The position numbers were made by a program, and so were the translations under genes. DNA of 20,336 bases, taken from the IMG/VR virus record IMGVR_UViG_3300031951_001504, positions 1 to 20,336 of that record; one strand, given 5' to 3'. This document shows, in pieces, positions 1 to 17,559 of the stretch (its first letter is position 1; each line of letters opens with the position of its first letter). This stretch comes from a virus. The notes beneath the pieces are model-generated. The model saw only the letters and a list, made by a program, of their open reading frames with translations. It was not told where the DNA came from and made no database searches.

Positions 1-2
1 GA

Positions 3-236
3 GACTTTTTTAAAGTTCATACAGACTCTTCTAGAAGATATCCAAGACAAGTATCTTCTGTCTATTATCTAAATGACGACTACGAGGGTGGAGACTTATA
101 TTTTCCATTTTTAAATATAACAATTAAGCCAGCAGCATCAGAACTTATATTTTTCCCATCAACAAATTTATTTTCTCACGAAGCAAAGCCCGTATCAAAA
201 GGAGTTAAGTACTCCATGGCCAACTGGTATAATTAA
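3..236 (+). CDS. 2OG-Fe(II) oxygenase, C-terminal part (5' truncated)
   Basis: Open from the window edge in frame 3 to TAA at 234-236; the start lies outside the window. The visible 77 residues hold the core of a 2-oxoglutarate/Fe(II)-dependent dioxygenase of the prolyl-4-hydroxylase-like type: VHTD gives the HxD iron ligands (His codon 18-20, Asp codon 24-26), then YYLNDDYEGGDLYF, then the distal His in FSHE (codon 177-179), and ten residues later Lys (codon 207-209) where the 2OG-binding Arg or Lys sits. The spacing matches the two complete oxygenases at 242 and 1100, so it is the first of three paralogues. The family hydroxylates protein, sugar or small-molecule substrates; the substrate here is unknown. 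Confidence 0.85.
   Translation, partial: DFFKVHTDSSRRYPRQVSSVYYLNDDYEGGDLYFPFLNITIKPAASELIFFPSTNLFSHEAKPVSKGVKYSMANWYN
225..233 (+). promoter_or_regulatory. extended -10 promoter, leaderless for the 242 gene
   Basis: TGG followed by TATAAT (228-233) lies over the end of the preceding oxygenase gene, with 8 bases between the hexamer and the ATG at 242. Transcription would start at about 240. No Shine-Dalgarno sequence lies before the ATG. Confidence 0.55.
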
Positions 237-241
237 TAACT

Positions 242-838
242 ATGAATAAAAAAGAATTAGGCGATAAAATAGTTGTGTATAGTGATTTTTTTGATAATCC
301 AATGATATTTTTAGAAGAAGCAAATAATATATTCAAAAATTTTCCAAACTTAAATTTTAAACCAGCAACAATTAATAACCATGAATATAATACAGACTTA
401 AGGTCATGCACTGTGTTTTCTTTAAATACTCAAAACACAAATCATGACGACATGTTCGGTATTGGATCAAGAAGAGCAAAGATTAATTTAAATAAATTAA
501 TAGATAGAAAAGTGTTTTCTTGTATTAATGATTACATGAAGTCATACGGTTTCACTGTAAAATATAGAGAGCCTTGGGAACTTTTAACATATCAAGAAAC
601 CCAGAAGTTAACCTGGCATTCTGACCATGGAGACGTTCATCCATGTCAAGTTTCATTTGTGTATTACTTTAATGACGATTATGTTGGCGGGGAGGTTGAG
701 TTTAAGGATCATATAGGGACTCCCTATAAGCCTACCGCTGGGGACCTACTAATATTTCCCTCATCTCCTGACTATATTCATAGAGTTCTACCAATAGAGT
801 CTGGTACAAAATATAATGCCATCTCTTTTGCAAAATAG
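242..838 (+). CDS. 2OG-Fe(II) oxygenase
   Basis: A 198-residue, full-length small dioxygenase of the 2-oxoglutarate/Fe(II) superfamily. The iron triad is visible: His126 and Asp128 in WHSDHGD, and His180 in YIHRV. Lys190 in GTKYNA takes the 2OG-carboxylate position, where most relatives have Arg. The jelly-roll core strands VYYFNDDYVGGEVEF and PTAGDLLIFPS are typical. The N-terminal 120 residues diverge from the neighbours and probably set substrate choice. It starts 5 bases after the preceding stop and is probably read from the leaderless promoter at 225-233. Such enzymes are common in phages of aquatic bacteria, where their substrates are mostly unknown. Confidence 0.88.
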   Translation: MNKKELGDKIVVYSDFFDNPMIFLEEANNIFKNFPNLNFKPATINNHEYNTDLRSCTVFSLNTQNTNHDDMFGIGSRRAKINLNKLIDRKVFSCINDYMKSYGFTVKYREPWELLTYQETQKLTWHSDHGDVHPCQVSFVYYFNDDYVGGEVEFKDHIGTPYKPTAGDLLIFPSSPDYIHRVLPIESGTKYNAISFAK

Positions 839-4967: not shown

Positions 4968-6602
4968 ATGGCAACAGTAGTAAATAAAGACTTTAAGGTA
5001 AAGAATGGTCTTATCGTTGAAGGAACAACAGCAACGGTTGACAATTTTGACATTCTTACAAAGAAAACAGACGATCAGAATTATATCGTCAGCCTGATTG
5101 GCGGAACTGCCACATCAGCAAATGAAGCAAATAAGGTTGTAAAGCGTGATGCTAATGGCAACTTTGCTGCGGGAACAATAACAGCAAATCTTACAGGCGA
5201 TGTAACTGGTAATGCAGATACAGCAACAGCACTTGAGACTGCTCGTACAATTGAACTTACTGGTGATGTAACTGGTTCTGTATCTTTTGACGGTACAGCA
5301 AACGTACAAATTTCAACAACCCTTGATAGCGATTTTGCTACAGACGCAGAGGTTGCTACAGCAAAGGGTGAAGCAATTGCAGATGCAGCAGCAGACGCTA
5401 CTTCAAAGGCTAACGCAGCCCAGGCAGCAGCAGAACTTACAGCATCAAATGCTCTTTCTTCAGCAGTAACAACTCTTGAAGGACAGATTTCCGATGCAGA
5501 AGATGCAGCAAATCTTTATACAGATAATGCTATTACAGCATTAGATCTATCTAATACATACGATGCAAAGGGTGCAGCAGCAGCAGCGCAAGCAGCAGCA
5601 GAGTCTTATGCTGATGAAAAGGTTGCAGATCTTGTAGATGGAGCACCAGCACTTCTTGATACACTCAATGAATTGGCTGCAGCAATTGCTGATAATCCAA
5701 ACTATGCAACAGATGTTGCTAACTTGGTTGCAGGAAAGCAAGATACTCTAACTGCAGGCTCAAATATTGATATTACAAATGATGTTATTTCTGTAACAGG
5801 TCTTACCTCTGCAGAGATTTCTGACTTTAACACAGCAGCCCTTGCAGCAACAGCAGCAGCATACGATATGTATGGTGCAGCAGCAGCAGCACAAGAAGCA
5901 GCAGAAGACTACGCAGACGGCCTTGCAATCAACTACGATGCAGCAGGTTCTGCTTCAACAGCACAGACTAATGCTGAGACATTTACAACAAATGCAATAA
6001 ATGGTCTTGACACAGATGATATTGAAGAGGGAGGAGCAAACCTTTACCACACAGATGCTCGTGCAAAGGCTTCAGCAGCAAATCTTCTTCTCAATGCATC
6101 ACTAACAAATATCGCAATTACAGGTAACAGTACTACAGGTCTTATCATCACCGCAGAAAACGGTGTAGCAGATTCTAATACTGATCAACTTGCAGAAGGT
6201 ACAACAAACCTTTACTTCACAGATGCTCGTGCAGTTTCTGCTCTTGAGGCAGTTACTCCAGACTTTCCTGCAGTAGAGATTGCCTCAGTAGCAAAGCAGG
6301 TGGCAGCAGAAGCATTTGTTGCAACTGCAAGCACAAACACAGCAGTTTCATGGTTGAAGGCAGACTATCGTTCTGCTGAATTCCTTGTTAAGATTGCCAA
6401 CGGAACTCACACAGAGGTTTCAAAGGTTATCTTGACACTTGATACATCAGACAATGTCGCAGTAACAGAATACGCAATGGTTGGAACAAATGGTTCACTT
6501 GGATCGGTTTCAGCAGATATTTCTGGAAATGATGTTCGTCTTCGTGTCACAACTGATAACAATAACTCAACAGTTACTGTTGTTGGAACACTTTTAGCAT
6601 AA
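4968..6602 (+). CDS. tail fibre protein
   Basis: A 544-residue, Ala/Asp-rich, cysteine-free fibre. It starts with NKDFKVKNGLIVEG, an N-terminal tag shared with the gene at 6634. Next come beta-repeat segments (LTGDVTGNADTATALETARTI, then LTGDVTGSVSFDG), then long alanine-rich coiled-coil-like helices (for example AKGAAAAAQAAAESYADEK) between short beta motifs. The turn EGGANLYHTDARA recurs as EGTTNLYFTDARA. Residues 462-544 form a C-terminal beta module shared with the 148-residue protein at 4504. AAAGGAG at 4954-4960, seven bases before the ATG, is a good SD site. A trimeric receptor-binding fibre is likely; the receptor is unknown. Confidence 0.85.
   Translation: MATVVNKDFKVKNGLIVEGTTATVDNFDILTKKTDDQNYIVSLIGGTATSANEANKVVKRDANGNFAAGTITANLTGDVTGNADTATALETARTIELTGDVTGSVSFDGTANVQISTTLDSDFATDAEVATAKGEAIADAAADATSKANAAQAAAELTASNALSSAVTTLEGQISDAEDAANLYTDNAITALDLSNTYDAKGAAAAAQAAAESYADEKVADLVDGAPALLDTLNELAAAIADNPNYATDVANLVAGKQDTLTAGSNIDITNDVISVTGLTSAEISDFNTAALAATAAAYDMYGAAAAAQEAAEDYADGLAINYDAAGSASTAQTNAETFTTNAINGLDTDDIEEGGANLYHTDARAKASAANLLLNASLTNIAITGNSTTGLIITAENGVADSNTDQLAEGTTNLYFTDARAVSALEAVTPDFPAVEIASVAKQVAAEAFVATASTNTAVSWLKADYRSAEFLVKIANGTHTEVSKVILTLDTSDNVAVTEYAMVGTNGSLGSVSADISGNDVRLRVTTDNNNSTVTVVGTLLA
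5574..5602 (+). repeat. GCA trinucleotide tract encoding poly-Ala
   Basis: Nearly pure GCA/CAG triplets inside the 544-residue fibre gene, with a similar tract near 5874-5910. They encode alanine-rich helix and are prone to slippage in multiples of three, which would change fibre length without breaking the frame. Confidence 0.6.
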
Positions 6603-7148: not shown

Positions 7149-9305
7149 ATGGCAACAAGAATGCAACAGCGCAGAGGCACCGCAGCACAGTGGGCATCTG
7201 CAGACCCTATTTTAGCAGCAGGAGAAATCGGATTTGAGACTAACACAGGCAAGTTCAAGATGGGTAATGGTTCGTCTGCATGGACTGCTCTCTCCTATTT
7301 CGCAGATGCATCAGATTTTGATACATCAGCGATTGAGTCAACAATTGATTCAAAGGTCGCTACAGCAGTAGATACTTTGGTTGCTGGAGCACCAGCAGCA
7401 CTTAACACATTAAATGAATTGGCTGCAGCAATTGATAATAATTCTACATTTGCTACAGCAATTACAACTGCACTTTCAACAAAAGCCACTTTAACACAGG
7501 TAAATACTCATGAAGCATTGACAACAGGTGTACATGGCATTGCTGACACAGCAGCATTAGCAACTAAGACCTATGCTGATGATGCAGTTTCTGCTCACGC
7601 AGGAGACTCTACAAATGTACATGGCATTGCTGATACAGCAGCCCTTGCAACAAAAACATACGCAGATGATGCAGCAGATGCAGCAGAATTAGCAGCAACA
7701 ACTGCTGCAGGTACAGCAGCAGATGGAAAAGTTTCAACACATAATGCACTTACTACAAATGTTCATGGTATTGCTGATACAGCAGCATTAGCAACTAAGG
7801 CTTATGCAGATCAAGCAGCATCAACTGCTGTTTCTGCAGAAACTGCAGCAAGATCATCTGCAATTACTGAAGCACTTTCTAGCCATGGAACAGCAACTTT
7901 AAATATCCATGGCATTGCTGATACAGCAGCATTGGCTACAAAGACCTATGCTGATACTACTGCCACAAGCGCAGTTTCTACTCATAACGGAGTAACCACA
8001 AATGTTCACGGTATTGCTGATACAGCAAATCTTGTAACATTAGCAGGAGTTCAAACTCTTACCAACAAGACAATTACATCTCCTTCAGGACTTGTAAAGG
8101 CAGATGTGGGCTTAAGCAATGTTGATAATACTTCAGATGCAGACAAGCCAATTTCAACCGCTGCACAAACAGCACTTGATCTCAAGGCCCCACTGGCATC
8201 TCCAACATTTACTGGAACAGTAGTTCTTCCAACAGTAACAGCAGGTGGAAGTATTGTTCCATCTACAGACAACACATACGACCTTGGATCCCCAACAAAA
8301 ATGTGGAAGGATGTATATGTTGGTCCAGGATCGCTATACGTTAATGGACAAAAGGTTATTCAAGATGATTCTGGCAACATTGTTCTCAGTGCAGATGCTA
8401 ATGAAAACCTAGCATTACGTACAAGCGGTAGCGGTAATGTTGAACTTGATCCAACAGGAACAGGTAATATTCAGGTTAAGGGAACTTTATCGATTCAAGC
8501 AGGAAATCAAATAACAAGCAGTGACGGAAATGCAGTTGTTTTTGGTAATCCTGTAAGTGTAGATACAATTTCTAGCAAAACAGAAAATACGGACTTATCT
8601 CTATCTGGAAACGGTACAGGAAAAGTTTACGTTAACGATAATGCAGAAGTAAATGGAAACCTCATTGTTGGTGGAAACCTAACAGTAAGCGGAACAACTA
8701 CAACTGTAAACAGCGAAACAATTTCTTTAGCCGATAACATTATCGACCTAAACAGCAACTTTACTACTGGTACTCCAACAGAGAATGCAGGAATAAAGAT
8801 TAAGCGTGGAGACTCATCTGATGTTCAAATTCGTTGGAATGAGTCCAGCGACGTTTGGCAGTTTACAAATGATGGCGCTACATACGATAATATCGCAGGC
8901 AAGACAGAACTAGATCTTAAGGCTCCATTAAATTCTCCAACTTTTACTGGAACAGTAACCTTGCCAGCAGCAGGTATTGTATTCTCAGATGGAACACAGG
9001 CAAAGGCTGGTGTGCCATCTATTACAACATTTGCAACAGCAATCTCATCATCTGCAACACTTGCAGCAGGAGAAGCAGACAAGTTTGTTCCACTAACAGG
9101 AGCAGTAACTATCACACTTCCTGCAACAGGATACGTAACTGGGCAATCTATTGATTTCTACCAGGCTTCAGGAACTGGAGCACAGTTTGCTTCAACTAAC
9201 AGCGTTGTAGGAACACCAGGACTCAAGTTCAGAACTACCAACTCAGTAGTAACAGCAATGAAGACCGCAAGCGGATGGCTGGTTTTCGGAGATCTGTCAG
9301 CATAA
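7149..9305 (+). CDS. receptor-binding tail fibre with Mtd-N-like head
   Basis: 718 residues, no cysteines. The N-terminus (MATRMQQRRGTAAQWAS, ILAAGEIGFETNTGKFKMG, SSAWTAL) matches the major-tropism-determinant N-terminal domain, which anchors fibres to phage tails. Residues about 128-297 carry five copies of an HGIADTAALATKTYAD unit. Residues 300-718 are beta-rich, with two LKAPL-x-SPTFTGTV segments flanking GNLIVGGNLTVSGTTTTVNS and a GGSIVPSTDNTYDLGSP pattern seen in phage T4-type fibres and chaperone-dependent spikes. The C-terminus (VTITLPATGYVTGQSIDFYQ, WLVFGDLSA) looks like a small beta tip domain. No C-type lectin variable domain is seen. It is the likely main host-range determinant. 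Confidence 0.85.
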   Translation: MATRMQQRRGTAAQWASADPILAAGEIGFETNTGKFKMGNGSSAWTALSYFADASDFDTSAIESTIDSKVATAVDTLVAGAPAALNTLNELAAAIDNNSTFATAITTALSTKATLTQVNTHEALTTGVHGIADTAALATKTYADDAVSAHAGDSTNVHGIADTAALATKTYADDAADAAELAATTAAGTAADGKVSTHNALTTNVHGIADTAALATKAYADQAASTAVSAETAARSSAITEALSSHGTATLNIHGIADTAALATKTYADTTATSAVSTHNGVTTNVHGIADTANLVTLAGVQTLTNKTITSPSGLVKADVGLSNVDNTSDADKPISTAAQTALDLKAPLASPTFTGTVVLPTVTAGGSIVPSTDNTYDLGSPTKMWKDVYVGPGSLYVNGQKVIQDDSGNIVLSADANENLALRTSGSGNVELDPTGTGNIQVKGTLSIQAGNQITSSDGNAVVFGNPVSVDTISSKTENTDLSLSGNGTGKVYVNDNAEVNGNLIVGGNLTVSGTTTTVNSETISLADNIIDLNSNFTTGTPTENAGIKIKRGDSSDVQIRWNESSDVWQFTNDGATYDNIAGKTELDLKAPLNSPTFTGTVTLPAAGIVFSDGTQAKAGVPSITTFATAISSSATLAAGEADKFVPLTGAVTITLPATGYVTGQSIDFYQASGTGAQFASTNSVVGTPGLKFRTTNSVVTAMKTASGWLVFGDLSA
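7530..8040 (+). repeat. five in-frame HGIADTA repeats in the 718-residue fibre
   Basis: Copies begin at 7530, 7617, 7761, 7905 and 8004, so units are spaced 29, 48, 48 and 33 residues apart. The core VHGIADTAALATKTYAD is nearly invariant in the first four copies; the fifth changes to ANLVTLAGVQ as it leads into the next domain. Linkers vary in length and are Ala/Thr-rich helices. Likely repeated shaft units of a trimeric fibre. Confidence 0.85.
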
Positions 9306-9328: not shown

Positions 9329-10942
9329 ATGTCAAAGCAAGCAGGTAGAATGAGCCAAAGCGCAAATGACTTTTTGGCACCAGGTGCACCAACAATAGGC
9401 ACAGCAACAGATGTTGGAACAGAAAGGGCATACAATAATGGCGCTGCAACAGTAACATTTACTGGCTCTACAGTAAACCCAGCAACCTCTTACACAGTTA
9501 CATCTTACCCAGGAGGATATACTGCAACAGGTGCATCTTCTCCTATAACAGTAACAGGCCTTCAGTCTGAAACTGAATATACCTTTAAAGTTAAAGGAAC
9601 AAATGGAGCAGGAACTGGAGATGAGTCAGGTGCATCTAATGCTATAACTGCAACAACTGTTCCACAAGCCCCAACAGTTTCAGCAGTAGACGTTGGAACA
9701 AATCGACCATATAATAATGGAGCAGCAACTGTTACAGTTACAGCAAACGCAACTGGTGGTAAATCAATAACATCATATGGAGCAACTCCAAGTGGATTAT
9801 CTGAAACAACAAATGGCTCTAGCCCAGTTACACCAACTGGGATGTCATCTGCAACAGGATATACATTTACTGGAAGAGTGCAAAATGCAAATGGTTGGTC
9901 TGCTGCATCTGCTGCAACAGCATCAGTTACCATTACAACCGTTCCTGATACAATAAGTGCTCCTTCAGCATCTGCCGTTGCAAATCAAGCACAAGATTCC
10001 GTGTCTTGGTCTGCTCCCGCAAACGGTGGTAAAGCAATTACAAATTACTACTGGACTTCATCAGACGGAAAATCTGGAAATACAGCCTCAACATCAGTTA
10101 CTGTAAATCAAGAGGCTAATACTCAACAGACATATAATGTTAGAGCAGACAATGCAAATGGATCATCTAGTACATCTGCAAGTTCTGGAAATGTCACAAC
10201 ATTTTCATTTACTCCGTTTGGATTTACTCCGTTCGGTGCCTTCGGTGCCTTCGGTGCGTTCGGTGCGTTCGGTGCGTTCGGTGCGTTCGGTGCCTTTGGT
10301 GCCTTCGGTGCGTTCGGTGCCTTCGGTGCCTTCGGTGCGTTCGGTGCGTTCGGTGCGTTCGGTGCCTTTGGTGCCTTCGGTGCGTTCGGTGCCTTTGGTG
10401 CGTTCGGTGCCTTCGGTGCGTTCGGTGCCTTCCACTTCTATCCTGGAATTCACGCCCACTCCTTGGCAGAATCGACCAAAGTTTTGGTTCCAGGTTCTCC
10501 AAAATCGTCAAAGGCTGCTAAAGACTTGCAAGTTGGAGATACGTTATTAGGACTCAATATACCAAATCCAGCAAACGTAGCCTGGACTAATTGGGAAGTA
10601 GACTCCTCTACAGTATCACTAAGTTCAGAAAATGTTGTAGAAACTACAATTGTTTCTATTAATACTTTTCCAGAAAATGAATTTATATACGTAGATGGAG
10701 ATTTATTCTCTAACTCACACTATATTCTAGTTCAAAAAGATGGAGTAACTAAATTTATTCCAGCATCACAAATTGATACAACCTATAAAATATTTTCTGC
10801 TGACTCAAACTCTTTTGTTGATGTACTTTTAGTAGATACTATTAGTATGCCATTGACAAAAATATCAATTAACTGTGAGCCTTATGATAACTTTTTTACA
10901 GAAACAATGTTAGTATTTGATACACAAGATTCAGCAGAATAG
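9329..10942 (+). CDS. fibronectin-III / GAF-repeat / Hint-like tail protein
   Basis: 537 residues. AAAGGAG at 9315-9321 is seven bases before the ATG. Residues about 18-295 form three fibronectin type III-like domains (TSYTVTSYPGG, SETEYTFKVKGTNGAG, then similar units beginning at PQAPTV and ISAPSAS). Residues 303-368 are 22 perfect Gly-Ala-Phe units, introduced by FTPFGFTPF. After HFYPGIHAH, residues 378-531 resemble a Hint (hedgehog/intein) domain: SLAESTKVLVPG (block A, Ser378 where Cys is usual), KDLQVGDTLLG, SNSHYILVQKDG with His464, and EPYDNFFTETMLVFD (block G-like). The terminal Asn is missing. It is probably a tail-tip adhesin that may process itself; activity is inference. Confidence 0.82.
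   Translation: MSKQAGRMSQSANDFLAPGAPTIGTATDVGTERAYNNGAATVTFTGSTVNPATSYTVTSYPGGYTATGASSPITVTGLQSETEYTFKVKGTNGAGTGDESGASNAITATTVPQAPTVSAVDVGTNRPYNNGAATVTVTANATGGKSITSYGATPSGLSETTNGSSPVTPTGMSSATGYTFTGRVQNANGWSAASAATASVTITTVPDTISAPSASAVANQAQDSVSWSAPANGGKAITNYYWTSSDGKSGNTASTSVTVNQEANTQQTYNVRADNANGSSSTSASSGNVTTFSFTPFGFTPFGAFGAFGAFGAFGAFGAFGAFGAFGAFGAFGAFGAFGAFGAFGAFGAFGAFGAFGAFGAFGAFGAFHFYPGIHAHSLAESTKVLVPGSPKSSKAAKDLQVGDTLLGLNIPNPANVAWTNWEVDSSTVSLSSENVVETTIVSINTFPENEFIYVDGDLFSNSHYILVQKDGVTKFIPASQIDTTYKIFSADSNSFVDVLLVDTISMPLTKISINCEPYDNFFTETMLVFDTQDSAE
10235..10432 (+). repeat. 22-copy 9-bp minisatellite encoding (Gly-Ala-Phe)22
   Basis: Twenty-two uninterrupted copies of GGT-GCS-TTY. Gly is GGT in all 22; Ala is GCC in 11 and GCG in 11; Phe is TTC in 19 and TTT in 3 (units 7, 15 and 18). 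GCA, the main Ala codon in the flanking fibre genes, never occurs. Units 2-9 and 11-17 share nearly the same order of variants, which suggests a block duplication. The array is far richer in G+C than its surroundings. Confidence 0.97.
10460..10921 (+). other. Hint-like (hedgehog/intein) domain region
   Basis: Residues 378-531 of the preceding tail protein. Blocks appear in the order expected of a Hint fold: nucleophile-end strand SLAESTKVLV, VGDTLLG, a His-bearing SNSHYILV strand and a final EPYDNFFTETMLVFD. Ser378 could act in an N-to-O acyl shift as in Ser1 inteins. The C-terminal Asn needed for intein splicing is absent, and no C-extein follows beyond TQDSAE, so only N-terminal cleavage would be possible. 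Confidence 0.65.
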
Positions 10943-10977: not shown

Positions 10978-11724
10978 ATGAAAGAAAAAAAATCTGCAAA
11001 AATATCATTTGTATCTACATTGCCAAAAAATATAGATTTATTTCCAGAACCAGTGCCAGCATTTAAAGAAATACCATCCTGGTTTAAAAAAATATTGCCA
11101 TTTTATGAAAATGATGATACCCCAATTGATGGAGTACAAAGGCTAACGGTTAAAAGATGCCTTGCATTTTTAGATATGTTATCAAGCGGGTATATAATTA
11201 AAACACCATTTGATATTTATATTGATACCACTGAAGGTAAAAGAATTTTTCAAATCCCAAAGTCTATGGAAACTTTTTCTAATTTTGGCGGAAAACCTAT
11301 GATTGGTAATCATGATATAAGACAAGTAGAGGGATATCCAATAGATAATGAAAAATATATACAGCATATATTTAGGATAAATCCAATTTGGGTAGCAAAG
11401 GGTAGTAAAGGTGTAAGTGCAATTTTTATACAGCCACAGCATCACGAAGTATCACCTTTATATGCAATTGCTGCAGTAGTCGATATTGATGGTTATCCGT
11501 CTGATGGACTATTATCATTTTTAGTTAAAAAAGATTTTAAAGGTTATGTTCAAAGGGGAACTCCACTAGTTCAGGTAATACCTTTTATGAGACAAAATTT
11601 TGTTTCTGAAATTATAAGAGATCAAAAAGAAACTGATAATATTAAAGCCATAGTAGCAAAAGTCAGATCATTTTTTAATTCTGGTTATAAAAAATTAATG
11701 TGGCAAAAGAAAAGTTATACCTAA
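10978..11724 (+). CDS. uncharacterised phage protein
   Basis: 248 residues from the ATG at 10978; a TTG at 10960 would precede the -10 element and is rejected. The basic start (MKEKKSAKISFVS) leads to PEPVPAFKEIPSWFKKILPF, DGVQRLTVKRCLAFLDMLSSGYIIKTPFDI and later FRINPIWVAKGSKGVSAIFIQPQ, YAIAAVVDIDGYP, GYVQRGTPLVQVIPFMRQ. The pattern 'K-R-C-x2-FLD-x3-SGYII-x3-PFD' resembles proteins of unknown function in cyanophages and other marine phages. The GTPLVQVIPF segment faintly recalls the beta core of dUTPase-like folds, but no catalytic motif is seen. It is AT-richer than the fibre genes, separately promoted, and placed just before the reductase. Function is not assigned. Confidence 0.7.
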   Translation: MKEKKSAKISFVSTLPKNIDLFPEPVPAFKEIPSWFKKILPFYENDDTPIDGVQRLTVKRCLAFLDMLSSGYIIKTPFDIYIDTTEGKRIFQIPKSMETFSNFGGKPMIGNHDIRQVEGYPIDNEKYIQHIFRINPIWVAKGSKGVSAIFIQPQHHEVSPLYAIAAVVDIDGYPSDGLLSFLVKKDFKGYVQRGTPLVQVIPFMRQNFVSEIIRDQKETDNIKAIVAKVRSFFNSGYKKLMWQKKSYT

Positions 11725-13863: not shown

Positions 13864-16800
13864 ATGTCTAGTCCATCAAATCTGTATGCAGAAAAAATAT
13901 ACTCTGAGCACCCTCAGTTTTTGTGGGCACTTGATGATAAGGCTGATTACGTTTCCTTAATCTCAGAAATACAAAGAAATACTTCTGCCTGGATTTTTGA
14001 TAATGGATCTTCTACAATAACTGAAGAATTACTAGATGCTCCGTTTCCAGACAGTGTAATTAACAAAGTTATTCCTGCTGCAGTTACAGAAGGCTTGTTT
14101 TCAGTAACTTTAGTTAGTCCAGAAATAGTAAGCACGAGCCAACTTAATAGTACACTTAAAACTTTTTCAATTGGATCTTATTTCTACACACTTAGTCCGT
14201 ATTCCCTTAGCATAGAAATAGGGTATAGATATTATGATGATGCACAAGAACAATATGTAGATGTTTTAAAATCTTATGATGCATCTCTTTCTGATAGATG
14301 GTATTTTTTATCTGAAACTTTTAGTCCAGAATCTAGCGACTTGCCATTAAGGTTAGTTATAAAGATAAACTATTTAGGACAGTCTTCAGAGTTAAATGAT
14401 TACGCATTTTATATTAATGGAATTACATTTGGACAATGGTCGGAAGAGTTTCAGTCAAGTTCTCTTGGAGTAACTAAAACAACTCTTCCAAGCAGCATAG
14501 CGTTAGACCCTAGTGATGTTATTGAGGCAAAAGCGTACGGCCTGTCAGATTCTAATGGATATTATTTTGTAAATAACAGCGCATTGGCTGCAAAAAACTT
14601 TGGTGTGCCTATGGTTTTTGGATCAGAGAATGTTACTAAGTTATACGATAATAACAACAAGCCCTGCTTAATTGTTCCTTCTAACGGTATGATGTCTGAC
14701 GGCGGTAGATATCAAGAATTTACTTTAGAGTTTTGGTTAAGAACAAATAATTCTTCTTCTCAATCAAAAAGAATAGTTGGGCCAATTTCATCAACTGATG
14801 GCCTATATGTAGACGGTCCATTTTTAATATTAAAGATAAATGAAAAGTACGAATCATATTATATTGGTCAATGGGAAAGACCAATGTTACTTCACTGGAG
14901 ATACTCCAATAACTTATCTACAGTTCTGTTAAATGGCGAAGAGATAATCTCAATGTCCATAGATAGTTCTTTAATCTTATTGCCAGAAGCAGAAAATGAA
15001 TTAGGCAAAAATCAAAACTGGATTGGGTTTTATGCCTATCAAGATATACAGCCTATAGAGTTAGATTGCATTGCTCTATACACATACTTAGTCCCGTCTT
15101 TGGTTGCAAAACGAAGATTTGTTTATGGACAAGGCGTAGAGTATCCAGAAAACCTCAATGCAGCCTATGGAGGAAGTACTGTTTTATTTGACTATTCTTT
15201 TGCCGATTACACCAAAAACTATAACTACCCAGATCTAGGCTCTTGGTCTCAAGGTCTTTTGGACAATGTAATAATTGAAGACAACTATTTAAAAACTCCA
15301 GAATTTATTGCTCCACAAATATTTACTAATAGCATTGTTAATACTGGCGAAGAGTTATTGAATCAGTGTGCAACAATTCAAAATGAAACCTCTTTATTCA
15401 TAAACTTAAAACCATCTTCTCCAGCATGGGATAATACAGATTCATATCTTTATTTTGATAACTTTAACTTACTAAACCAAAGAACCCACGCATTCTACGG
15501 CTTGTTTAAAAAAGAAACTGGAACTGTTACCAATCAAGTTCTTATTAGAATAGAAGACAATTCAGGAAACTATTTGTCAATAGAGTCCGTTGGTGCAGAT
15601 ATTAGATACATCTTAAAATATGGGCAAGAACCTATTGAAACCATATATGAAGCAGTTTCAGTTCCTGAAAATGAGATCTTCGCAGTTGGTATTGAGATAG
15701 ATGTTTTTAGAGATTACTATGGAGGAAATTTAGTTTCATTTTTTAATGGGTCCTCCTCATTAAAGATGTATGTTGGGGGTACTAAAGAATTTCAAAAGAC
15801 ATTTACTGGAAATATTTATAAAATTGCTTTATGCTCTGAAAAAAATGTAAAAGATATTCAAGATCTGTTTAACATCTTTGGAGTTCCAAAAGACTATGAA
15901 AATATTTTTAATCTTTACGGCCCTGGAGTTAGTTATGATGGCGGAGACGCAGATCAGGATTTTTGGTCTTTCGTTTTTAATGGAGGAAATGTCAACTCAT
16001 TCTTAACATTAGAATTAGAGAACCACGTTGCCAGTTTTTCTATAGTTCCTAAAAATTATTTTGATAACTTTTATTTAGATGTTGATATAAAGGGATCATG
16101 GAAAGACTATATACCTTTGTCATATTTTGGCCAATACATTACAGACGAATATGGAGATAGTAAGTTTGGGCTAGACTTTATTCAATTTAATGTAAACTAT
16201 CCAGCACCAGCAAAATTTAAAGAAACAGAAGTGAAAGATACAGATGGCTGGCTTTATAGTGAGTTATCTACAGAATATTCATATCCAGTACAAAGAACTT
16301 ATGAGTCTTTGGATAATTATTTGTATACTGGATATGTAGACTATCAAGATCTGGCAGAAAGATCAATTAAGACATACTCATATGATACATCAGACGCTAT
16401 ATTAAAAACATATATTACATTTGAATATCTTGAATCAGGCGCCAATGCTTCAGAAGGATTTTTTGTTAACACTCAAGATGTTTCAAAAAATGGAGTAGTT
16501 AGTCCAGGAAGCGAATGGATTAATACTAAATATGAAGTTGTTGACAATACAATTATATATCCTCCAGCAGGAATTGATTTTAATAAAATAGCCATTGTAG
16601 TTCATCTTGAGTTTTTGGTAGATGGAATTAAATATCAGCCAATAAAAATTAAAAATTTACAGTTAGCATCACAAGCATTTAATTATAATACAGCGAACAA
16701 CATAGGGACAAGATTTGGCACTAATGTATACCCTTACGTTAACAATGGATATTATTATAACTATAAATCTAAAAATCCTTTTGCCATATACAAGGGATCG

Positions 16801-17559
16801 TCCCCATATCTTTATTTGACTAGAAACTCTGGCTTAGAATTGCGTGGTAACTATGATCCACTTATTAACAGAGGGGTTGCCATACCCGTTAATACTAATA
16901 AGGATGCAAACTATGAAGTTATGGCAATGCAATCTTTAATTAGGTTTAATGAAGACTTTTTCCCATATGCTCCTACACAAATTATGCAAATAAATGCAAA
17001 GGGCAAAACAATAAAACTGTATACGGTAGCAAATCATCCAACAGGTAAAAGAGCAAAAATATATGCAATCGACGGTAATACTGGAGCGCTTTATGACGGT
17101 ATAGCATTTTACTTAAATGGCAAAATAGTAAAAGAGCCAGTAATTAATATTAATGAATGGGCAATGCTAGGAATAGGATTCCCCAGCATATTAAATTTTA
17201 AATCTTATGCGGGATCAATAATGATTAATGGCCCAATCATATTTAACAGTTTATCTTTTTATCAGACAACTAATCTTCAGGCTATTCAGACAGTAACAAA
17301 AAGACCTTGGGCTAGGGTAAAGTTTGCCGTGGATGGTGTGTTTGACTGGGAGTATTGGAATGATTATTTTGTGTGGCAGGGTGTACTAGTGCAATCGGCA
17401 GTTAGTTATTATGGAGTAAATCCAGCAGATATATATAAGGCGTACACTGGCACCAATAAAATAATCGTTGACGATTCTAGAGTTTTTAGTTTTAAGGACT
17501 ACGAGTATGCAGTTTTTAAAGATGTATTGTGGCAATCACAAATATCAGATGCGGTATAA
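13864..17559 (+). CDS. large virion protein with LamG/concanavalin-like domains
   Basis: 1231 residues, aromatic- and Asn-rich, the largest gene here. Residues about 280-410 (RYQEFTLEFWLRTNN, GLYVDGPFLILKI, LLHWRYSNNLSTVLLNGEEII, ELDCIALYTY) and about 540-675 (THAFYGLFKKETG, VLIRIEDNSGNYLSI, NLVSFFNGSSSLKMYV, NIYKIALCSE) each read as a concanavalin-like (LamG) jelly roll. A later region (about 1040-1165, FNEDFFPYAPTQIMQINA, IAFYLNGKIVKEPV) may be a third. The final part, VFDWEYWNDYFVWQGVLVQS, lacks a known motif. Such domains bind glycans, so a tail-tip or side-fibre adhesin is likely. It sits just before the portal region and carries its own promoter. Confidence 0.75.
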   Translation: MSSPSNLYAEKIYSEHPQFLWALDDKADYVSLISEIQRNTSAWIFDNGSSTITEELLDAPFPDSVINKVIPAAVTEGLFSVTLVSPEIVSTSQLNSTLKTFSIGSYFYTLSPYSLSIEIGYRYYDDAQEQYVDVLKSYDASLSDRWYFLSETFSPESSDLPLRLVIKINYLGQSSELNDYAFYINGITFGQWSEEFQSSSLGVTKTTLPSSIALDPSDVIEAKAYGLSDSNGYYFVNNSALAAKNFGVPMVFGSENVTKLYDNNNKPCLIVPSNGMMSDGGRYQEFTLEFWLRTNNSSSQSKRIVGPISSTDGLYVDGPFLILKINEKYESYYIGQWERPMLLHWRYSNNLSTVLLNGEEIISMSIDSSLILLPEAENELGKNQNWIGFYAYQDIQPIELDCIALYTYLVPSLVAKRRFVYGQGVEYPENLNAAYGGSTVLFDYSFADYTKNYNYPDLGSWSQGLLDNVIIEDNYLKTPEFIAPQIFTNSIVNTGEELLNQCATIQNETSLFINLKPSSPAWDNTDSYLYFDNFNLLNQRTHAFYGLFKKETGTVTNQVLIRIEDNSGNYLSIESVGADIRYILKYGQEPIETIYEAVSVPENEIFAVGIEIDVFRDYYGGNLVSFFNGSSSLKMYVGGTKEFQKTFTGNIYKIALCSEKNVKDIQDLFNIFGVPKDYENIFNLYGPGVSYDGGDADQDFWSFVFNGGNVNSFLTLELENHVASFSIVPKNYFDNFYLDVDIKGSWKDYIPLSYFGQYITDEYGDSKFGLDFIQFNVNYPAPAKFKETEVKDTDGWLYSELSTEYSYPVQRTYESLDNYLYTGYVDYQDLAERSIKTYSYDTSDAILKTYITFEYLESGANASEGFFVNTQDVSKNGVVSPGSEWINTKYEVVDNTIIYPPAGIDFNKIAIVVHLEFLVDGIKYQPIKIKNLQLASQAFNYNTANNIGTRFGTNVYPYVNNGYYYNYKSKNPFAIYKGSSPYLYLTRNSGLELRGNYDPLINRGVAIPVNTNKDANYEVMAMQSLIRFNEDFFPYAPTQIMQINAKGKTIKLYTVANHPTGKRAKIYAIDGNTGALYDGIAFYLNGKIVKEPVININEWAMLGIGFPSILNFKSYAGSIMINGPIIFNSLSFYQTTNLQAIQTVTKRPWARVKFAVDGVFDWEYWNDYFVWQGVLVQSAVSYYGVNPADIYKAYTGTNKIIVDDSRVFSFKDYEYAVFKDVLWQSQISDAV

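Follow-up and report, generated by a model that had tools for sequence, protein, structure and literature searches.

Gene content of the locus

The record analysed here is a 20.3-kb virus fragment, referred to below as the window (all 20,336 nucleotides of it), with a GC content of 32-42% and no tRNA or Rfam match. The features on which this study focuses are listed in Table 1. The genes around the Hint gene match PHROG tail families, and the Hint gene closes the tail-fibre module. Among 80 loci, a homologue of the upstream Mtd_N fibre gene was found in 55, and the order fibre gene, Hint gene and phrog_7084 is kept in most of the 80.

Table 1. Position of the Hint gene, its parts and its two neighbours in the window.
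Feature	Positions	Strand	Basis or remark
Tail-fibre-like gene, 718 aa, with Mtd N-terminal domain, directly upstream of the Hint gene	7149..9305	+	Pfam Mtd_N E 1.4e-13, PHROG tail fibre
Whole Hint gene, 537 aa (leader, FN3-like modules, repeat linker, C-terminal Hint)	9329..10942	+	ORF
FN3-like adhesin region, ~residues 15-290	9371..10198	+	Pfam fn3; approximate limits, read off the sequence
Aromatic repeat linker FSFTPFGFTPF(GAF)22HFYPGIHAH, directly before the Hint domain	10202..10459	+	Tandem array
Hint domain, residues 378-531	10460..10921	+	AF2 model, PDB fold search, family profiles
Block A: Ser378 (position 1), Thr383, VGD 402-404; predicted scissile bond His377-Ser378	10460..10540	+	
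Block B: GDLFSNSH, invariant His464, Ser461 replacing the Thr of TxxH	10697..10741	+	
Block F: KISINCEPYDNFFT, Ser513 at the intein Asp position, invariant Cys516	10859..10900	+	Invariance partly ascertainment, as part of the motif served as search pattern
Block G remnant: MLVFD, Phe530-Asp531 replacing His-Asn	10907..10921	+	
phrog_7084, 248 aa, downstream neighbour	10978..11724	+	Best resemblance: dUTPase fold

Scanned singly against Pfam, the 537-residue protein gives just an fn3 match (E 4e-9, in two stretches, best at residues 39-103), a weak collagen-like repeat (E 1.4e-4) and a sub-threshold SH3_9 hit, and the FN3/(GAF)n protein has a PHROG minor tail protein match at E 0.003. Within the linker, positions 10232-10432 form a 9-bp tandem array of 22.3 copies that codes for (GAF)22. 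The number of GAF units is 22 in the window protein, 24 in its close relatives L001 and L002, 18 in L004 and 5 in L003, and hence the length of the linker is unstable. Judged by its position in the tail module and by the FN3 or PASTA modules of its family, the Hint protein is of the phage tail adhesin or fibre type; the original prediction had likewise placed it in a phage tail protein, which is borne out by the Mtd_N fibre gene, the PHROG tail families and the FN3 modules.

The downstream neighbour phrog_7084, which accompanies the Hint gene almost constantly, adjoins ribonucleotide reductase and is also found in haloarchaeal viruses and cyanophages. Its predicted structure (pLDDT 89) has a weak likeness to dUTPases (best Z 8.6, Foldseek E 0.018), and it is possibly a divergent dUTPase-like protein. 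As a candidate partner enzyme of the Hint domain it was dropped, given this model and the adjacent ribonucleotide reductase, and it probably plays no role in how the Hint works.

Elsewhere in the window, three 2OG-Fe(II)-oxygenase-like ORFs lie at 3-1696, the first being cut by the window start and Pfam being applied to the second and third. A GlcNAc-type glycosyltransferase comes next, at 1698-2642. Between the ribonucleotide reductase and the portal gene lies a 1231-aa ORF (13864-17559), which has homologues in 41 of the 80 loci and no match in Pfam or PHROG.

Identification of the Hint domain

Our analysis of family profiles and of a predicted structure identifies a Hint domain of ~155 residues at the end of the 537-aa protein. 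The AlphaFold2 model of the domain, for which an alignment of 46 family sequences was the input, has a mean pLDDT of 92.3 and a pTM of 0.87. Its top PDB matches, using Foldseek and VIA-align, are Hint and intein structures only (Z up to 18.1), the best being BIL2 of Tetrahymena (Z 18.1, 2.1 A over 138 residues), and hedgehog 1at0 is matched with Z 17.1 (1.8 A over 131 residues). The original prediction had claimed a C-terminal Hint domain and had proposed such a comparison with Hint and hedgehog folds as its check, and the comparison agrees with it. The first model residue aligned on hedgehog Cys258 or on residue 1 of inteins is residue 9, i.e. Ser378. On the Mtu RecA intein, the model range 9..162 is aligned with 1..440, so that the last residue of the intein corresponds approximately to residue 531.

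The Pfam family Intein_splicing is matched by 19 of the 46 family members (best 6.7e-6) and Hint_2 by 10 of them. The A3 profile, which includes jumbo-phage relatives, finds the PDB chains of BIL2 and the gp41-1 intein with E-values of 7e-5 to 3e-4, BIL2 being the best match (E 7e-5). The window protein alone has no Hint match in Pfam even at E 10, because it is too divergent. A phmmer search of the PDB with the single Hint domain gave a chance GH16 match only, and the NCBIfam search gave one intein_Nterm match at 0.014, the remainder being noise.

The domain limits and active-site residues had been called correctly from the DNA, as 10460-10921 covers exactly codons 378 to 531, the codon of Ser378 (position 1) begins at 10460 and that of the retained His464 is 10718-10720. 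The domain ends in MLVFD with Asp531 at 10921; the EPYDNFF motif is present and the splicing Asn is missing, both as foreseen.

Conservation and selection in the Hint family

At least 196 stretches in IMG/VR encode the Hint family according to a pattern search, overlapping with 82 from another search. We assessed conservation in 70 distinct proteins, whose pairwise identity has a median of 44% and a minimum of 28%. Ser378, His464 and Gly403 are present in 70/70 and Thr383 in 69/70, and the only invariant columns in residues 378-511 are Ser378, Gly403, Thr439 and His464. The probability that the two named columns, Ser378 and His464, both fall among these four of 134 by chance is ~7e-4, ignoring phylogeny, and both residues lie outside the search patterns that gathered the family. 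Their conservation far exceeds what chance would give. The EPYDNFF end is near-invariant, a constancy that is partly ascertainment since the motif was itself a search pattern. Across the family, Ser378 is encoded by all four TCN codons and once by AGT.

Position 461 is Ser in 52 of the proteins, Thr in 13 and Val in 5, and Ser513 occupies the block-F Asp position (F:4) in 65/70. Residue 531 is Asp in 64, Glu in 5 and Gly in one, and the His-Asn end is absent from all 70. The +1 position after residue 531 is not conserved (Arg in 28/70, Ser or Thr in only about one third, Thr532 in the window), nor is the residue directly before Ser378. Between 3 and 12 residues follow Asp531 across the family.

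We observed a median dN/dS of 0.25 over 38 close pairs and a dN/dS of 0.06 between the window and L001, and the family is clearly under purifying selection. It is a large and constrained family and not a lone decayed relic. The domain had been described as degenerate, which holds for the splicing half, lost family-wide, but does not hold for the N-terminal catalytic positions, which are invariant and under purifying selection. The His-rich lead-in pointed out before the predicted cut does exist in the window protein but is private to close relatives and carries no weight: at least one His occurs among the 8 residues preceding Ser1 in 14/70, and three or more in only 3/70.

No relative of the Hint domain was found in bacterial and archaeal genomes by pattern and tblastn searches, and hence there is no evidence for prophage or host copies. 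Some homologues from uncultured Caudovirales are already labelled "Hint domain containing protein" or "Fibronectin type III" in the databases, and we found no description of Hint domains in tail proteins or adhesins of phages in the open-access papers searched. Hint domains of phages are usually regarded as inteins that reside in genes for replication or packaging. Our data indicate that the tail adhesins of a large environmental family carry, as their standard C-terminal cassette, a Ser-type Hint that lacks the splicing end.

The Hint domain as a cassette of adhesin genes

Comparison of the family members indicates that the Hint domain is a cassette set behind varied adhesin modules and repeat linkers. 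The modules are FN3 in most members and PASTA in others. The linker is repetitive and usually Phe-rich, with a wording that varies among GAF, FPP, SPF and HYAGF, and a few members use Thr-Pro or Val-Gly-Ser-Pro repeats instead. Some phages have two Hint tail genes. The two Hint stretches of L029/L068, which lie on one contig, are 99.0% identical in DNA while the N-terminal parts are 53% identical in protein, suggesting that the cassette was recently copied or gene-converted between tail genes of one phage. Adhesin genes share the cassette, which is sometimes homogenised between them. L031/L078 are another two tail genes of a single contig with 99% identical Hint DNA and different adhesin parts.

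Relatives in jumbo phages

More distant relatives form the C-terminus of jumbo-phage tail proteins, namely in the Erwinia phage SNUABM_33/Alexandra group, Yersinia phage fHe-Yen9-02, Phage NCTB and a 200-kb IMG/VR contig. The A1 profile matches these Hints with E-values of 1e-16 to 4e-13, and a match to PHROG 38766, of this group, has E 2e-7. They are homologous to the window domain by sequence, likewise form the last part of a tail protein and share the insertion around a conserved Trp. However, they keep Cys1, TxxH and the terminal His-Asn and are therefore not Ser-type half-Hints, and the modules that they follow are collagen-like or of other kinds. Block B of the window family aligns with FTHEH or ITQDH in the jumbo-phage Hints, and the block-F Asp is present in several of them where the window family has Ser513. 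A DNA pattern for EPYDNYF led to one additional jumbo-phage type, and scans with L154 or the NCTB Hint as query gave no additional relatives. By sequence, the two groups are one tail-associated Hint lineage with a complete Cys form and a Ser-type half form.

Comparison with known Hint classes

The window family has two features of Class 1 inteins, i.e. Cys or Ser at position 1 and the block-B His, but lacks the terminal His-Asn, the Cys, Ser or Thr at +1 with a C-extein and the block-F Asp. Class 3 inteins have a Cys at F:4 and no position-1 nucleophile, whereas the window family has Ser1, and its Cys516 lies three residues past F:4. A Class-3-like role of Cys516 as nucleophile was ruled out, as the alignment sets Ser513 at F:4 and Ser1 is present. 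A-type BILs end in His-Asn, in contrast to the Ser1 and Phe-Asp of the window family. In outline, the motif pattern is compatible with that of B-type BILs, which have all splicing motifs but the C-terminal one and undergo N-terminal cleavage. BIL2 of Tetrahymena BUBL1 (6y75) is the closest to the window domain both in structure and among PDB sequences.

The fold is shared with the hedgehog Hog domain (1at0), and functionally both would be left with no more than the first half of the chemistry of inteins. Hog has Cys1 and a sterol-recognition region after the Hint, whereas the window family has Ser1 and no such region. The PT-HINT of polymorphic toxins, which one jumbo-phage relative matches with E 1e-5, is likewise a Hint that releases one end of a modular surface or secreted protein. 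The difference is that nothing lies C-terminal of the Hint here, so that any freed piece would be the N-terminal adhesin.

A possible self-processing reaction and its alternatives

The first acyl shift of Hint proteins needs a Cys or Ser at position 1 and the block-B His (PMC7765530, PMC7664689). Hedgehog proteins carry out this initial shift only and use it for cholesterol transfer (PMC7664689), and the typical activity of BIL domains is cleavage without ligation (PMC7765530, PMC7664689). The anatomy of the window domain fits N-terminal cleavage or a hedgehog-like transfer to a nucleophile. The reading that we prefer, and to which we would give an even chance, is that the half-Hint forms an ester at Ser378 and that the adhesin is then released by hydrolysis. 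After folding, the Ser378 hydroxyl would attack the His377-Ser378 bond with the help of His464, and the N-to-O acyl shift would produce an ester between the His377 carbonyl and Ser378. Hydrolysis is the simplest fate of such an ester because there is no Asn to cyclise and no conserved +1 nucleophile. Water, possibly aided by the conserved acidic residue 531, would thus resolve it, and the FN3 and aromatic-repeat part would be freed from the Hint of ~160 residues. This would take place during fibre maturation, as in other autocleaving C-terminal fibre domains. We infer the reaction itself, its timing and the parts played by water and Asp531.

The cleavage reading is supported by the correspondence of Ser378 to residue 1 of the known folds, the invariance of Ser378 and His464, the low dN/dS, the complete Cys1/TxxH/HN set in the jumbo-phage relatives and the distribution of the cassette. 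As the residues of the first step are unchanged across a large environmental phage family, it is probable that the adhesins of these phages are trimmed or modified once synthesised. The first step may nevertheless be slow or lost in the Ser-type family, since the Thr of TxxH is mostly Ser (Val in 5/70) and the block-F Asp is Ser513. The block-F Asp assists thiol deprotonation in inteins, and esters of Ser react less readily than thioesters of Cys. It is normal for Hint domains to have an unconserved residue before position 1, and its lack of conservation before Ser378 lends no extra support to cleavage. If the family does cleave, the reaction would be a step in the maturation of phage fibres, and the family would be a source of new cleaving domains of the Ser type.

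A catalytically dead Hint domain, kept at the tip of the fibre as a cap for folding, oligomerisation or receptor binding and retaining its old active-site residues for structural reasons, seems to us somewhat unlikely. It would account for the change of Cys1 to Ser, of the TxxH Thr to Ser, Thr or Val and of the block-F Asp to Ser, and for the loss of the splicing end. In addition, conservation is equally strong at Thr439, for which no catalytic role is known, and over much of the EPYDNFFT block, so that constraint by itself need not imply catalysis. However, it is exactly position 1 and the block-B His that are invariant while their neighbours vary freely, and these two would be expected to be hit first by decay. 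Ester formation at Ser378 might alternatively end in a hedgehog-like conjugation, which we consider improbable: a hydroxyl or amine of a virion protein, sugar or lipid would attack the ester, and the new C-terminus of the adhesin would become covalently joined to the virion or to the surface of the host. The half-reaction is the one that hedgehog uses for its transfer to cholesterol (PMC7664689), and the proteins have short N-terminal leaders and no recognised anchor domain. On the other hand, neither a sterol-recognition-like region nor any other extension for binding an acceptor lies in the few residues beyond Asp531, an oxyester donates its acyl group less readily than a thioester does, and phrog_7084 is unlike a conjugating enzyme.

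A phage adhesin conjugation in which the ester-activated aromatic-repeat adhesin is passed to a nucleophile of the virion or host surface, making the attachment covalent and not reversible, is in our estimate a little less probable still; conjugation would, if it occurs, be a new mode of viral attachment. We find it very hard to believe in a residual trans- or C-terminal chemistry, in which Asp531 would act like the terminal Asp of inteins and the short tail would be released or exchanged. A terminal Asp occurs rarely, in some inteins, residue 531 is acidic in 69/70 and Thr532 comes next in the window, but the penultimate His is Phe, the +1 residue is more often Arg than Ser or Thr, and residue 531 is Gly in one protein.

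Stand-alone Hint-like proteins

Stand-alone Hint-like proteins of ~153 aa adjoin the jumbo-phage tail Hint genes in L157 (6429-6890) and in L164, where the protein is encoded on the minus strand (reverse-complement 5076-5534). They begin with Met, have no residue-1 nucleophile and keep His-Asn, and hence represent the half opposite to that of the window domain.
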